Assembly (NCBI RefSeq): GCF_902506495.1
Contig: NZ_LR733264.1
Span: 620,001 to 684,000 of the forward strand
Source of the DNA: Pseudomonas sp. 8O
Lineage (GTDB): Bacteria; Pseudomonadota; Gammaproteobacteria; Pseudomonadales; Pseudomonadaceae
Direction: 5' to 3'
Length of the DNA stretch: 64,000 nucleotides
Shown here: positions 50,692 to 63,432 of the stretch, piece after piece
How positions within the stretch are numbered: position 1 is the stretch's first letter
Layout of the letters: every line of letters begins with the position of its first letter
The notes under the pieces: generated by a model
Told to the model about the DNA's origin: nothing
Seen by the model: only the letters and a program-made list of their open reading frames with translations
Databases searched by the model: none
Translations under genes and position numbers: made by a program

Positions 50692-50792
50692 CGGCCGAGA
50701 CTAGCATTTCATTGCTATCGGGGTAGGGGCGCGGCGCCATTGTGCGTAAAATGTCGCGCTTTCGTTCCCACTCCCTCGGATTTCGACGCACC

Positions 50793-51617
50793 ATGGGCAC
50801 CCTTTCGGTCAACCAGAACAAACTGCAGAAGCGCATTCGCCGCCTGGCCGGCGAAGCCATCACCGACTTCAACATGATCGAGGATGGCGACAAGGTGATG
50901 GTCTGCCTGTCCGGCGGCAAGGACAGCTACACCATGCTCGACGTGCTGCTGTACCTGCAGAAGGTGGCGCCGATCCAGTTCGAGATCGTCGCGGTGAACA
51001 TGGACCAGAAGCAGCCCGGCTTCCCCGAGCATGTGCTGCCGGCCTATCTGGAATCCGTCGGCGTGGCGTACCACATCATCGAGAAGGACACCTACTCGGT
51101 GGTCAAGGAGAAGATTCCCGAGGGCAAGACCACCTGCTCGCTGTGCTCGCGTCTGCGTCGCGGCACCTTGTACACCTATGCCGACGAGATTGGCGCGACC
51201 AAGATGGCGCTGGGGCACCACCGCGACGATATCCTGGAAACCTTCTTCCTCAACATGTTCTACGGCGGCACGCTCAAGGCCATGCCGCCCAAGCTGCTGT
51301 CCGACGATGGCCGCAACGTGGTGATCCGCCCGCTTGCCTACTGCGCCGAGGCCGATATCGAGGCTTACAGTCAGCTCAAGGGATTCCCCATCATCCCGTG
51401 CAATCTGTGCGGTTCGCAGGAAAACCTGCAGCGTCAGGTGGTCAAGGAGATGCTGCAGGAGTGGGAGCGCAAGAGCCCAGGTCGTGTCGAGATCATGTTC
51501 CGCGCCCTGCAGAACGTGCACCCCTCGCAGTTGGCCGACCGCAACCTGTTCGATTTCAAGAGCCTGAAGATCGACGACAGCGCCACGCCGCGTTTTCTCG
51601 ATGTAATGAGCCTGTAA
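50793..51617 (+). CDS. ttcA: tRNA 2-thiocytidine synthetase TtcA
   Basis: A 274-residue PP-loop ATPase with a [4Fe-4S] cluster that thiolates cytidine 32 of tRNA. PP-loop SGGKDS is at residues 40-45, the cluster Cys residues are Cys115 and Cys118 in TTCSLCSR and a third in [10 protein letters not shown]. The start at 50793 gives [18 protein letters not shown], the usual N terminus; the open frame begins at 50742. Confidence 0.96.
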
Positions 51618-51626
51618 GGCGCCGCC

Positions 51627-51701
51627 GTAGGGTGGATCACGCTTCACCGATTCGCCGTGTATGGGGATTGGTGGATGTAAAGGGCGACATCCACCCTACG
51701 T
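51627..51701. repeat. Inverted pair of family D repeats
   Basis: GTAGGGTGGATCACGC faces GGCGACATCCACCCTAC downstream of ttcA; a family C pair follows directly. Confidence 0.65.
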
Positions 51702-51707
51702 AAGACA

Positions 51708-51766
51708 TCGCGGCTAAAGCCCATCCCACGGTTCGCGTCGTTTGTGGGAGGGGCTTTAGCCGCGAC
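51708..51766. repeat. Inverted pair of family C-like repeats
   Basis: TCGCGGCTAAAGCCCATCCC faces GGGAGGGGCTTTAGCCGCG, ending 10 bp before the promoter of the DAHP synthase leader. The two pairs isolate the leader transcript from ttcA. Confidence 0.65.
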
Positions 51767-51776
51767 GCTTTCGCCC

Positions 51777-51806
51777 TTGCCAGGCTGCAAAGGCCTGGAG
51801 TATGGT
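51777..51806 (+). promoter_or_regulatory. Sigma-70 promoter for the DAHP synthase leader transcript
   Basis: TTGCCA and TATGGT with an 18-base spacer. Transcription would start near 51813, about 18 bases before the first leader ORF, as in classical attenuators. Confidence 0.6.
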
Positions 51807-51830
51807 TCGGCCATCGCTTTGGAGAATTCC

Positions 51831-51962
51831 ATGTCCGCCAGCCTCAACCTCCTGTCCATGCTGCAAGCCGGTGCCACGAGCGCCGCGCTGGCTCGTGCGC
51901 AGGCGCTTGTGGCGGCAGCGTATTATTTCTTTGGGTATTGGTTTAGCCACAGGCGCGCCTGA
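51831..51962 (+). CDS. Aromatic leader peptide 1 of the DAHP synthase attenuator
   Basis: A 43-residue ORF with GGAG six bases before its ATG. Near its end it encodes YYFFGYWF (codons 51921-51944): seven aromatic residues in eight, covering Tyr, Phe and Trp, followed by a short polar tail and TGA. Starting 57 bases after its stop is a perfect intrinsic terminator. This is the arrangement of a ribosome-mediated attenuator: a shortage of charged tRNA-Tyr, -Phe or -Trp stalls the ribosome at this run and allows readthrough into the gene for the first enzyme of the aromatic pathway. The N-terminal 30 residues are alanine/leucine-rich, longer than in typical leader peptides. Confidence 0.8.
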   Translation: MSASLNLLSMLQAGATSAALARAQALVAAAYYFFGYWFSHRRA

Positions 51963-52014
51963 TACCCCACAGGCGGCCTGAGACACCAGGGTCGCCACCA
52001 GAGACGTTTTCCAG

Positions 52015-52055
52015 AAAACCCCCGGTCGGCAACCCGACCGGGGGTTTTGTTTTTT
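52015..52055 (+). terminator. Attenuator terminator ahead of DAHP synthase
   Basis: CCCCCGGTCGG-CAAC-CCGACCGGGGG, an eleven-base-pair perfect stem, is extended by AAAA/TTTT and followed by TTTTGTTTTTT. It lies between the two leader ORFs, not after the gene, so it can only act as a regulated premature terminator. A GTTTT/AAAAC mini-hairpin (52007-52019) overlaps its 5' arm, and GGGTAT/ATACCC (51933/51962) could form an upstream stem that overlaps the aromatic codons. Confidence 0.85.
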
Positions 52056-52091
52056 CCGGCCGAAAAACGGCCACAGATCGAGGACTCACAG

Positions 52092-52181
52092 ATGAACCGT
52101 TATTACCGCAACTACCGCTACGACTGGCGATTTAGCAGCGTCACCACCGCCCTGACACCTTTGCAACGAACACTCAGTTAG
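52092..52181 (+). CDS. Aromatic leader peptide 2, after the attenuator
   Basis: A 29-residue ORF beginning MNRYYRNYRYDWRF: four Tyr, one Trp and one Phe among the first 14 residues, interleaved with Arg. GAGGA lies seven bases upstream. It starts 36 bases after the terminator's T-tract and ends 44 bases before the DAHP synthase ATG. No terminator follows it; instead CGCGGT-ATCG-ACCGCG (52188-52203) forms a hairpin just before the synthase ribosome-binding site, so a stalled ribosome here could control translation. A similar role to leader 1 is inferred. Confidence 0.65.
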   Translation: MNRYYRNYRYDWRFSSVTTALTPLQRTLS

Positions 52182-52225
52182 CGCCGCCGCGGTATCGACC
52201 GCGCCGGCCAAGGAACCGCCAGATC

Positions 52226-53284
52226 ATGAACAGCTCCGCTCAACTCGCTTCCACCGTCACCAGCATCGCCCGCCGCAGCGCCCAGCCGCTGCCCAGCCCC
52301 GCTGTCTTGCGCCAGCGCCTGCCGCTGCCCGCCGCACTTGCCGAACGTATTGCCGCCGACCGTGACGCCATTCGCGCCGTGCTCGATGGCCGCGACTCGC
52401 GCCTGCTGGTGGTAGTCGGCCCCTGTTCCCTGCATGACCGTACCAGCGCCCTCGAATACGCCGAGCGCTTGGCCGAGCTGGCCCCGCAGGTCGATGACCA
52501 ACTGCTGCTGGTGATGCGCGCCTACGTGGAAAAACCACGCACCACGGTGGGTTGGAAGGGGCTGTTGTACGACCCGCATCTCGATGGCAGTGGCGACATG
52601 GCCGAAGGCTTGCGCCAGTCGCGGCAACTGATGCTGGATATCCTCGCTCGCGGCCTGCCGCTGGCCACTGAGCTGCTGCAGCCGATGGCCGCCGGTTACT
52701 TCGATGATCTGCTCGGTTGGGCGGCCATCGGCGCACGTACCAGCGAGTCGCAGGTGCATCGCGAGATGGTCAGCGGCCTGGATCTGCCGGTGGGCTTCAA
52801 GAACGGCACCGACGGCAGCGTTGGCATCGCCTGCGACGCCATGCGTTCGGCGGCGCACCCGCATCAGCACTTCGGCATCGATGACCTTGGTCACCCGGCG
52901 CTGTTGCAAACTACCGGCAACCCGGACACCCATCTGGTGCTGCGTGGTGGCCACGGTGCGCCGAACCATGACGCTGCCAGCGTCGGCGCTGCACGTGAGG
53001 CACTGCAGCGCCAGGGGATAGCGCCGCGCATCATGGTCGACTGCAGCCATGCCAACAGTGGCAAGGACCCGCTGCGCCAGCCGGCTGTATTGGAGTCTGT
53101 GATCGACCAGCGCCTGGCCGGTGATGCCAGCCTGCGCGGTGTGATGCTGGAGAGCCACCTGTTCGACGGTTGCCAGGCGCTTTCCGGCGAGCTGCGTTAC
53201 GGCGTGTCGATTACTGATGGCTGCCTGGGCTGGATCGCTACCGAAGCAACACTGCGCCAGGCTGCCGAGCGTTTGCGCGGGTAG
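52226..53284 (+). CDS. 3-deoxy-7-phosphoheptulonate (DAHP) synthase, class I
   Basis: A 352-residue AroF/G/H-type enzyme that condenses phosphoenolpyruvate with erythrose 4-phosphate, the first step to chorismate. VVGPCSLHD holds the metal-binding Cys, VDCSHANSGKD the His, GVMLESHLFDG the Glu and ITDGCLGW the Asp. The N-terminal 45 residues would form the feedback-binding extension; which amino acid inhibits it cannot be read from the sequence. It is preceded by two aromatic leader ORFs and an attenuator. The TAG stop lies in the first bases of a family E repeat. Confidence 0.94.
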   Translation: MNSSAQLASTVTSIARRSAQPLPSPAVLRQRLPLPAALAERIAADRDAIRAVLDGRDSRLLVVVGPCSLHDRTSALEYAERLAELAPQVDDQLLLVMRAYVEKPRTTVGWKGLLYDPHLDGSGDMAEGLRQSRQLMLDILARGLPLATELLQPMAAGYFDDLLGWAAIGARTSESQVHREMVSGLDLPVGFKNGTDGSVGIACDAMRSAAHPHQHFGIDDLGHPALLQTTGNPDTHLVLRGGHGAPNHDAASVGAAREALQRQGIAPRIMVDCSHANSGKDPLRQPAVLESVIDQRLAGDASLRGVMLESHLFDGCQALSGELRYGVSITDGCLGWIATEATLRQAAERLRG

Positions 53285-53333
53285 GGCGAGTGCAACCCGC
53301 CAATCCGGGACTGGCGGGTTGCACCCGCCCTAC
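53281..53333. repeat. Inverted pair of family E repeats overlapping the DAHP synthase stop
   Basis: GTAGGGCGAGTGCAACCCGC starts at 53281 and supplies the stop codon (53282-53284); the facing arm GGCGGGTTGCACCCGCCCTAC ends at 53333. Confidence 0.7.
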
Positions 53334-53414
53334 GTGAGCGTCGCCGCTGTGGGACTTGAGTGTTCTACGCGCTGCGTGCAGGCTCTGTCATCCGTTTCAT
53401 GAAGGGTTCGATTC

Positions 53415-54266
53415 ATGCGTGATTACAAGTGGCTGCACGAGTTCTGCCTCAACCGTTTCGGCTCGGCCAAGGCATTGGAAGCCATGCTGCCGCAGCCGCG
53501 CAGCGACGCCGAACTGCGTGCGCTGAGTGACGACCGCTACTTGTCGCTGATCAGCCTGCGCATCTTTCGCGCCGGCCTCAAGCACAGCCTGGTGGACGCT
53601 AAATGGCCGGCGTTCGAGGAAGTGTTCTTTGGCTTCGACCCGGAGAAGGTGGTGCTGATGGGCGCCGAGCGCCTGGAGAACCTGATGCAGGATGCGCGGC
53701 TGATTCGCCACCTGGGCAAGCTCAAAAGCGTGCCGCGCAATGCTCAGTTCATCCTCGATGTGCGGGCTGGACGCTTGTTGGGCAGTCCCTCATCCGGCGC
53801 TGCGCGCCACCTTGATCCACAGGGATGTGGTGAATGCAGTACTCCCGCCGGCGACCACATGGATGGGGGAGGTAGGAAAAACGCCGGGAGCGTTTTCGAG
53901 AGCGGGAGCTGCCTCCCTGAGGGAGAAGGGCATCAGACTGGGCCTGCGGCCCATTTCTCTTTTGGCGCGCTGATTGCCGATTGGCCGGTCAGTGACATCG
54001 TCGGGTTGTGGAAGTATCTGGCCAAGCATGGCAGTCAGCTTGGCGGTCTGTCGGCGCCGCGCTTCCTGCGTATGGTGGGCAAGGACACCTTCGTCCCTAC
54101 CGATGACATGGTCGCCGCGCTCAAGGCCCAGGGCGTGATCGACAAGGCACCAACCAGTTTGAAAGACCTGGCTGCCGTGCAGGCTGCCTTCAACCAGTGG
54201 CAGGCCGAAAGCGGGCGGCCGCTGTGTCAGCTATCGGTAATGCTGGCGCACACGGTCAATCACTGA
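53415..54266 (+). CDS. DNA-3-methyladenine glycosylase I-like protein with in-frame repeat insertion
   Basis: A 283-residue protein of the Tag-like helix-hairpin-helix glycosylase family. The two halves are clear: residues 1-116 (YKWLHEFCLNRFGSAKALEAMLP, FEEVFFGFDPEKV, RNAQFILDV) and from residue 182 (SFGALIADWPVSDIVGLWKYLAKHGSQLGG, PRFLRMVGKDTF). Between them about 65 residues of Gly/Ser/Cys-rich sequence replace an expected five or six. They come from a repeat at about 53763-53957, and the frame stays open. Without it the protein would have about 223 residues, the usual length. It may be inactive or may have a flexible loop. Convergent with yheU, overlapping by 11 bp. Confidence 0.85.
   Translation: MRDYKWLHEFCLNRFGSAKALEAMLPQPRSDAELRALSDDRYLSLISLRIFRAGLKHSLVDAKWPAFEEVFFGFDPEKVVLMGAERLENLMQDARLIRHLGKLKSVPRNAQFILDVRAGRLLGSPSSGAARHLDPQGCGECSTPAGDHMDGGGRKNAGSVFESGSCLPEGEGHQTGPAAHFSFGALIADWPVSDIVGLWKYLAKHGSQLGGLSAPRFLRMVGKDTFVPTDDMVAALKAQGVIDKAPTSLKDLAAVQAAFNQWQAESGRPLCQLSVMLAHTVNH
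53763..53957. repeat. Repeat element inserted in frame inside the glycosylase gene
   Basis: About 195 bp with intergenic-repeat character: TCATCCGGCGCTGCGCGCCACC at the left, CTCCCTGAGGGAG and GGGCCTGCGGCCC hairpins at the right, similar in style to the CCCTCTCCC/GGGAGAGGG hairpin at 58703-58728. Its translation has no similarity to glycosylases that I can see. Confidence 0.7.
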
Positions 54267-63059: not shown

Positions 63060-63135
63060 GGGTGATTAGCTCAGCCGGGAGAGCATCTGCCTTACAAGCA
63101 GAGGGTCGGCGGTTCGATCCCGTCATCACCCACCA
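63060..63135 (+). tRNA. tRNA-Val (anticodon TAC)
   Basis: A full cloverleaf: acceptor GGGTGAT/ATCACCC, D-arm AGCTCAGCCGGGAGAGC, anticodon loop CTTACAA with TAC, T-arm GGCGGTTCGATCCCGTC (GTTCGA loop), and encoded ACCA end. Length 76. Confidence 0.97.
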
Positions 63136-63150
63136 TAGCCTTAGAGAGAA

Positions 63151-63162
63151 GGACGAAAGTCC
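63151..63162 (+). other. GGAC-GAAA-GTCC hairpin upstream of first tRNA-Asp
   Basis: A four-base-pair stem with a GAAA tetraloop, found again in the same place before the second tRNA-Asp (63335-63346). It was probably copied with the tRNA and may influence processing. Confidence 0.5.
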
Positions 63163-63170
63163 ACCGACGC

Positions 63171-63247
63171 GCAGCGGTAGTTCAGTCGGTTAGAATACCG
63201 GCCTGTCACGCCGGGGGTCGCGGGTTCGAGTCCCGTCCGCTGCGCCA
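63171..63247 (+). tRNA. tRNA-Asp (anticodon GTC), copy 1
   Basis: Acceptor GCAGCGG/CCGCTGC, D-arm TAGTTCAGTCGGTTAGAATA, anticodon loop CTGTCAC with GTC, T-arm CGCGGGTTCGAGTCCCG, discriminator G and encoded CCA. Length 77. Confidence 0.97.
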
Positions 63248-63355
63248 TTATTTCCCAGATCGATGTTTCATCGATTTGAGATGGCAGAGTCCGCAAGGGC
63301 GCCATCAGATGCAATAAAGCTTCAAGAGTTTTCTGGACGAAAGTCCAACCGACAC

Positions 63356-63432
63356 GCAGCGGTAGTTCAGTCGGTTAGAATACCGGCCTGTCACGCCGGG
63401 GGTCGCGGGTTCGAGTCCCGTCCGCTGCGCCA
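63356..63432 (+). tRNA. tRNA-Asp (anticodon GTC), copy 2
   Basis: Identical in sequence to the copy at 63171, with the same GGACGAAAGTCC hairpin upstream, so the two are a recent tandem duplication of about 95 bp. The T-tract terminator follows directly. Confidence 0.97.

Follow-up and report, generated by a model that had tools for sequence, protein, structure and literature searches.

A second conserved aromatic leader ORF between a P15-type attenuator and the DAHP synthase gene of Pseudomonas sp. 8O, with a possible role in translation

Layout of the DAHP synthase locus

The stretch of DNA analyzed here (the window) comprises 64,000 nucleotides from Pseudomonas sp. 8O, and all coordinates refer to window positions. 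The locus lies on the plus strand and, in gene order, begins with ttcA (50742-51617). It is followed by a first short ORF (leader 1; MSASLN...AAAYYFFGYWFSHRRA; 51831-51962), which carries the control codons of an attenuator. The Rfam family P15 (RF00627) covers the aromatic codons of leader 1, the hairpins and the terminator stem (51920-52044); its covariance model matched leader 1 and the terminator with 103.7 bits compared with a gathering score of 70 bits. The intrinsic terminator of the attenuator (52015-52054), made up of a stem (52015-52048) and a T-run, was found by a consensus terminator scan. The regulated gene, a type I DAHP synthase of the aroF type (52226-53284), was assigned using NCBIfam PRK12755 (508.3 bits) and Pfam PF00793. 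Its nearest relatives among the listed loci are from P. composti, P. khazarica and two other Pseudomonas, with 93-95% identity.

Between the terminator and the synthase gene, a second short ORF (leader 2; MNRYYRNYRYDWRFSSVTTALTPLQRTLS; 52092-52181) is present, with an SD-like GAGGA (52080-52084), the start codon ATG at 52092 and the stop codon TAG at 52179-52181. The first 14 codons encode M N R Y Y R N Y R Y D W R F, i.e. four Tyr, one Trp and one Phe. The following 44 nt, which separate the stop codon from the synthase ATG at 52226, contain a hairpin (52183-52208) filling the gap up to the SD sequence of the synthase, AAGGAA (52210-52215). A CTGGCG within leader 2 (52124-52129) can pair with a CGCCAG that lies between this SD sequence and the ATG (52217-52222). 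It overlaps a near-invariant core, TGGCGATTTAGC, encoding Trp-Arg-Phe-Ser (52125-52136), which became apparent on comparison of loci. An initial annotation of the window had described a second aromatic leader with its own ribosome binding site (RBS) and this codon content; both were confirmed in the sequence, and every number checked, including the 44-nt distance, was correct.

A scan of 51620-52300 gave no sigma-70-like promoter between the terminator and the synthase, and on this basis an own promoter of leader 2 was rejected. A sigma-54 promoter was also rejected, since by eye the spacing did not agree with the consensus. As no sigma-70-like site separates the two leaders in the window, they are probably part of a single transcript.

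Occurrence of the two leaders in related bacteria

For comparison, we used loci from named genomes, namely the best 80 of a longer list ordered by similarity to the synthase of the window. Locus L073 was dropped for lack of an upstream region, and the assessable set consisted of 79 listed loci and the window (80 in total), spanning Pseudomonas and allied genera as well as Halomonas and allied genera. ORFs with at least four Tyr, Trp or Phe within 12 residues were searched without use of a motif. By this density scan, an aromatic leader 1 was found in 80/80 loci, with consecutive Tyr-Trp-Phe in all of them except L087. Immediately preceding the synthase, another aromatic ORF was found in 75/80; those without it were L066, L076, L077, L078, and L080. 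A scan anchored on the pattern TGG[CA]GNTT[TC][AT][GC][CTA] added L066, so that leader 2 is in frame in 76/80 loci, in line with the expectation of an intact frame in relatives. The four remaining loci all belong to Salinicola, and in the three of them that were inspected the terminator is followed directly by the synthase. In most relatives inspected, GAGGA or AGGA precedes the ATG of leader 2 and an SD-like sequence precedes the synthase (both by eye and without a count).

A further 19 stretches were chosen for a match to P15 or to a model of the long form of leader 2 (see below). In the family of the window, leader 2 was present in 6/6 of these stretches (L146-L151). The core was found in 5/5 stretches of family f36, probably Halomonas-like as judged by likeness, one of which (L152) has fewer aromatic codons. 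Among the seven stretches of family f43, leader 2 was present in two, present in a decayed form in two, and absent from three. Stretch L154, fetched for its model match, was unrelated. Judged by these comparisons, leader 2 is not a chance ORF, and the series of two aromatic leaders is real and conserved. Leader 2 is nevertheless dispensable, as it is absent from the four Salinicola loci and from three of the seven f43 stretches, which counts against the role proposed below. Leader 1 was kept where leader 2 is missing, both in Salinicola (L076, L077, L078, L080) and in part of family f43 (L139, L143, and L145). Salinicola and the others without leader 2 constitute a natural deletion series.

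Ribosome-mediated transcription attenuators of aromatic operons are known from the trpL and pheL type, in which a short ORF rich in end-product amino acids precedes a biosynthetic gene, and the trp genes of P. putida are subject to attenuation; leader 1 is of the same kind. Attenuation was reportedly also the subject of a comparative survey by Vitreschak and colleagues in 2004. Matches to P15 were found in 21 of 244 genomes of the order, 12 of them above its cut-off. Because leader 1 and the terminator match this family, the "Pseudomonas sRNA P15" would most simply be the terminated leader transcript made from the attenuator of the DAHP synthase, and not an sRNA that acts in trans. A TTTAGC close 3′ of a Trp codon is common to both leaders (51939-51947 and 52125-52136 in the window). 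In the listed loci, TGGTTTAGC occurs at leader 1 in 69 of the 79 having a script-found TGGTT, and TGGCGATTTAGC at leader 2 in 54/76.

Stop position, codon content and core of leader 2

In the hairpin after leader 2, CGCGGT (52188-52193) is paired with ACCGCG (52198-52203), and GCCG/CGGC extend the stem to 52183-52208. The initial annotation had called this hairpin a non-terminator, which holds: there is no T-run, and the consensus terminator scan of 51620-52300, which finds the upstream terminator, detected nothing resembling a terminator beyond 52054. In the window, a terminator thus follows leader 1 and none was found after leader 2, and a second terminator was rejected. Leader 2 differs from P15 and from trpL/pheL-type attenuators in this respect, and also in its position after an attenuator and the fixed distance between its stop and the SD sequence of the synthase. 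Leader 2 could still be a second transcription attenuator, Rho-dependent or acting via an unrecognised structure, as its aromatic codons and, in many relatives, the possibly structured element after the core would allow, and tandem transcription attenuators are known from mgtCBR (PMC3641672). This is nevertheless quite unlikely in view of the negative terminator scan after 52054 and of a stable hairpin that adjoins the SD sequence and has no T-run.

The distance from the leader 2 stop to the synthase ATG is 37-50 nt in most loci and 26-30 nt in seven (L060, L072, L074, L082, L086, L140, and L157). In nine regions (L079, L083, L084, L085, L087, L088, L153, L155, and L156), all Halomonas-type by name or likeness, it is at most 11 nt or the ORFs overlap; synthase starts were picked by script, and that of L079 is ambiguous. 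Every gap of at least 20 nt is filled by a stem (67/76 regions; identical gaps taken once); the hairpin is conserved among relatives. The stems begin around the stop codon, which lies within the stem loop in L060, L074, and L086, and end 12-21 nt before the ATG, adjoining the SD sequence; as the folded segment was cut 12 nt before the ATG, the lower bound is set by construction. Compared with dinucleotide shuffles, z was below -1 in 58 of 65 distinct gaps and below -2 in 35, with a mean of -2.34. The hairpin of the window itself reached -1.2, and weak stems were obtained for L009 (0.3), L082 (-0.2), L012 (-0.3), L050 (-0.6), L072 (-0.7), and L027 (-0.8). In L029, L030, and L032 the letters of the stem change and the pairing is kept. 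When the hairpin is counted as zero length, the standard deviation of the stop-to-ATG distance decreases from 14.0 to 4.2, helped by the 12-nt fold cut.

A stop at or near the next start, as in translationally coupled upstream ORFs, was thus found as near contact or overlap in 9/76 regions and as a stem-filled gap in 67/76. Of all observations, this geometry of hairpin or overlap most strongly suggests that the end of leader 2 is linked to the start of the synthase; the stop placement points to a cis-acting leader coupled to synthase translation. Because leader 2 is placed at a fixed position against the synthase start, control at the level of translation is the best reading. In our main interpretation, to which we assign a probability of about 0.5, leader 2 acts in cis, is translated, and has aromatic control codons and a stop tied to the synthase start; it would serve as a second ribosome-based check after the attenuator. 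The same geometry fits equally well, with opposite sign, to coupling by termination and re-initiation, in which ribosomes finishing leader 2 are passed on to the SD sequence of the synthase: the stop overlaps or lies within 11 nt of the synthase start in nine of the 76 regions, and a stem closes the gap in the other 67. The aromatic codons would then lead to less synthase during shortage, or leader 2 would mainly set translation efficiency. We regard this as unlikely, though it deserves consideration, since only a mild stall would reconcile its sign with the regulation of a biosynthetic enzyme, and re-initiation alone leaves the enrichment of Tyr and Trp unexplained.

This enrichment supports a check by aromatic control codons. 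Conservation of the Tyr codons in orthologous loci had been expected and was observed: at least one Tyr codon is present in 76/76 loci, at least two in 75/76, and at least three in 69/76. Up to and including the Trp-Arg-Phe core, 38% of the residues are aromatic (32% without the Trp and Phe of the core). Beyond the core this share falls to 0.6%, and over residues 1-300 of the synthase it is 3.4%. Leader 2 is accordingly a short ORF rich in a regulatory amino acid, as is typical for amino acid attenuators. The peptide outside the core is weakly constrained, as expected if leader 2 is a cis-acting leader. When 31 ORFs, each 50 codons long, were compared in pairs, 28% of the codon differences were synonymous, compared with 24% expected at random; the pairs are not independent, and third positions are the most variable in codons 2-14. 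In the closest clade of the window (five ORFs), 15/35 codon differences were synonymous, and therefore some amino acid constraint is possible. None of three leader 2 peptides tried matched an NCBIfam model.

The core TGGCGATTTA was found in 75/76 loci. Its variants (n = 76) are TGGCGATTTAGC in 54, TGGCGATTTACC in 19, TGGCGATTTAGT in two, and TGGCGCTTTAGC in one; some core letters were fixed by the scan pattern, and the third positions of CGN and TTY, among others, were free. In the synthases, CGA accounts for 3.1% of Arg codons and TTT for 5.6% of Phe codons. The near-invariant core, with codons rare in the synthase, is therefore under selection for its nucleotides or exact codons. CGA is also frequent elsewhere in leader 2 (110/368 Arg codons outside the core), and therefore less odd inside this ORF. 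The invariance of CGATTTA exceeds what control codons alone would need, and no partner tested accounts for it in all clades. In the genome of the window, the 12-mer core occurs once.

Such invariance, found in 75/76 loci despite the low share of CGA and TTT in their codon families in the synthases, would also fit a primary RNA element, e.g. a site for a protein, sRNA or nuclease at CGATTTA and, in many species, the downstream element, with the ORF being secondary. This is improbable, as frame and aromatic content are maintained and CGA is common in leader 2 outside the core as well. In addition, when the window and seven further loci were scanned, no match of an Rfam family to leader 2 attained the gathering score; weak sub-threshold matches overlap leader 2. 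Very improbable is a functionless vestige of a duplicated attenuator. The cores of both leaders are alike (GCTATTGG[CGA]TTTAGC compared with GCTATTGGTTTAGC in L083), and leader 2 was lost several times, but the near-invariant core and the geometry are kept across many genera, and the similarity of leader 1 and leader 2 reached p ≤ 0.05 in only 3/25 loci (L083, L084, and L085). An origin of leader 2 by duplication of leader 1 is suggestive only.

A longer leader 2 (45-57 codons) occurs in the fluorescens/putida group, in most Halomonas-type loci and in L082. In this form, a 45-nt element with CGGTCGG, TGCCRCC, CCGRCCG, and GGTGGC lies 6 nt after the core. It was analyzed in 50 loci, reduced to 45 by removal of identical rows and to 44, aligned without gaps, by omission of L086, which is out of register; the element is degenerate in L060 and missing in L081. 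Two mutually non-nested helices, as a pseudoknot or as alternatives, could form, with 93.2% of their cells paired (helix 1 88.0%, helix 2 99.2%). Shuffles reached the observed values in 40/500 cases for the paired percentage, in 22/500 for two-sided pairs, and in 384/500 for further pair types. Sliding the partners by +3 gave 8 compared with 4 two-sided cells and a covariation score of 0.091 compared with 0.063, but only 53.7% paired cells. RNAalifold favours a nested alternative, in which the core is paired with GGTGGC, and adds one pair with eight two-sided changes. Statistical support for a pseudoknot in the long form is modest. Because the element is present in both Pseudomonas and Halomonas-type bacteria, the comparison suggests that the long form is older and that the group of the window lost the element.

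A model of the long-form element (R1) matched 9/244 genomes of the order and 2/369 of the class, with G218 in both; the filters were strict and the short form is not reliably detectable, the genome of the window itself being missed. The matches in G247 and G574 are probably false, since these stretches contain no DAHP synthase motif. Frameshifting at the core and the possibly structured element, which together look like a frameshift site, was rejected, since the relative frame of leader 2 and the synthase is not constant (leader 2 starts at -134, -140, -146, -147, and other positions relative to the synthase); no slippery heptamer was seen by eye.

RNA folding, proposed control and known systems

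The initial annotation had further suggested folding the region to see whether the RBS of the synthase is hidden. The fold of the whole leader was no more stable than that of shuffles (z 0.73). In a crude model, opening the RBS of the window costs 6.7 kcal/mol when leader 2 is free of ribosomes. With the A site of a stalled ribosome at Tyr4, Tyr5, codon 6, and codon 7, the cost was 6.4, 6.7, 8.4, and 8.0, and at Tyr8, Tyr10, Trp12, Phe14, and the stop codon it was 5.1, 5.8, 5.9, 5.0, and 5.0; over codons 10-14 it ranged between 5.0 and 5.9. For two of the four Tyr codons, Tyr4 and Tyr5, the model thus predicts no effect, and for codons 6 and 7 the opposite one. For 33 loci, chosen from the 76, an A site located -4 to +3 codons around the Trp codon lowered the cost by about 1.1 on average (medians 0.2-1.0), and a ribosome at the leader 2 stop by 1.6 on average.

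Pairing of the core with the RBS region was compared between groups. In the group of the window (20 loci), the core paired better with the region from -22 to +4 than with shuffled RBS sequences (p ≤ 0.05) for 7 of the 13 distinct RBS; for 6/13, no other segment of leader 2 paired as well. The corresponding numbers were 7/33 for the fluorescens/putida group, 1/10 for the Halomonas-type group, and 1/5 for Halopseudomonas/Denitrificimonas. With the region from -12 to +20, 6/15 were obtained for the group of the window and 4/36, 2/9, and 0/5 for the other groups in the same order. Masking of CTGGCG lowers the predicted cost of RBS opening in the clade of the window. Outside this clade, pairing of the core with the start of the synthase is near chance, and as a general feature it was not supported. 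Folding support for a masking of the synthase start is modest and applies mainly to the clade of the window. For a hidden RBS, the pairing with the core above chance, mainly in this clade, speaks in favour; the z value of the whole fold and the small gain in RBS access speak against it.

Under the main interpretation, leader 2 would be reached only when transcription has continued past the P15-type attenuator. Owing to the Tyr run and the Trp-Arg-Phe core, the progress of the ribosome would depend on charged aromatic tRNAs. The stop would keep a constant position relative to the synthase RBS, either via the gap-filling hairpin or by near overlap, and the position of the ribosome on leader 2 would set synthase translation. 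In the most likely direction, with plenty of aromatic amino acids the ribosome would finish and depart, and the segment with the Trp-Arg codons would then be free to pair with the start region of the synthase. When they are scarce, a ribosome stalled at one of the later Tyr, Trp or Phe codons would cover the Trp-Arg segment and leave the synthase start open. The ORF, its conservation and placement, the hairpin and the near-invariant core are observed; translation of leader 2, its coupling, the sensing of amino acids and the direction of control are inferred. The initial proposal of a two-stage control, with leader 1 acting on transcription and leader 2 on translation, is thus supported in part, by the conserved series of leaders and the fixed placement of leader 2, and less by the folding of the RBS region.

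Only tentatively, and with more against it than for it in our estimation, we propose an ancestral module consisting of the core TGGCGATTTA (Trp-Arg-Phe), upstream aromatic codons and, in many species, the structured element 6 nt after the core. It might time the arrival of ribosomes at the synthase start and would represent a translational attenuator that follows a transcriptional one, with the same aromatic amino acids read by both. In the clade of the window, the structured element would have been lost, with retention of the core, of the aromatic codons and of the joint of stop, hairpin and SD sequence.

Control of one pathway at two levels is known from Bacillus subtilis with rtpLP and TRAP, where amino acid starvation likewise acts on the translation of the next gene. 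This system belongs to another phylum, uses different parts and is not known to have tandem leader peptides; the name rtpLP was not used among the matches listed in the open literature. Tandem attenuators were described for mgtCBR of Salmonella, in which mgtM and mgtP respond to different signals, ATP and proline, and both act on transcription; the passages concerned call it a "singular example" (PMC3641672). The mgtCBR leader (PMC3641672) resembles the present locus in having two short ORFs serially in one leader, one of which senses a charged tRNA, and differs from it in that both leaders here carry codons for one pathway and the second is located at the translation start. Serial leader ORFs as such thus have a precedent in mgtCBR (PMC3641672), and two of them precede the gene at this locus as well. 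Two leader peptides, ermBL and ermBL2, are described for ermB (PMC8274638), and mgtQ controls the translation of mgtB (PMC8092293). In both cases small upstream ORFs control translation of the next gene, as proposed here, but control is drug-induced or peptide-driven and the passages describe no run of end-product codons (PMC8274638, PMC8092293). In Shewanella, aroF is among the predicted regulatory RNAs, with "Attenuator sensing tyr-tRNA" listed as prior knowledge in the relevant part of that study (PMC2659441). The passages on PA1750 in two further articles make no mention of a leader (PMC4263517, PMC7857532). As judged by titles and the beginnings of abstracts, neither two serial aromatic leaders nor leader control of a Pseudomonas DAHP synthase was found among the matches listed in the open-access literature, in agreement with the initial annotation, which knew of no described case of two such leaders in series.

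If the main interpretation is true, ribosomes that read aromatic codons would control the first step of aromatic amino acid synthesis twice in Pseudomonas, Halomonas and their relatives, before transcription of the gene and before its translation, and the Rfam "sRNA" P15 would be the first half of a two-step switch. Natural variants with and without leader 2 would be on hand in Salinicola and the others lacking it. This would also be relevant for engineering Pseudomonas for aromatic products, because removal of the attenuator alone would leave the second control in place.

Some further features were observed 3′ of the synthase. A sequence at about 53270-53345 has dozens of matches genome-wide on both strands and is perhaps an intergenic repeat of the REP type. 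The ORF at 53415-54263 resembles DNA-3-methyladenine glycosylase I over about residues 39-118 only and scores 39.9 compared with an NCBIfam cut-off of 232.5 bits; its middle part looks foreign, perhaps due to a repeat inside the gene. Three consecutive tRNA genes are located at 63060-63429 on the plus strand.
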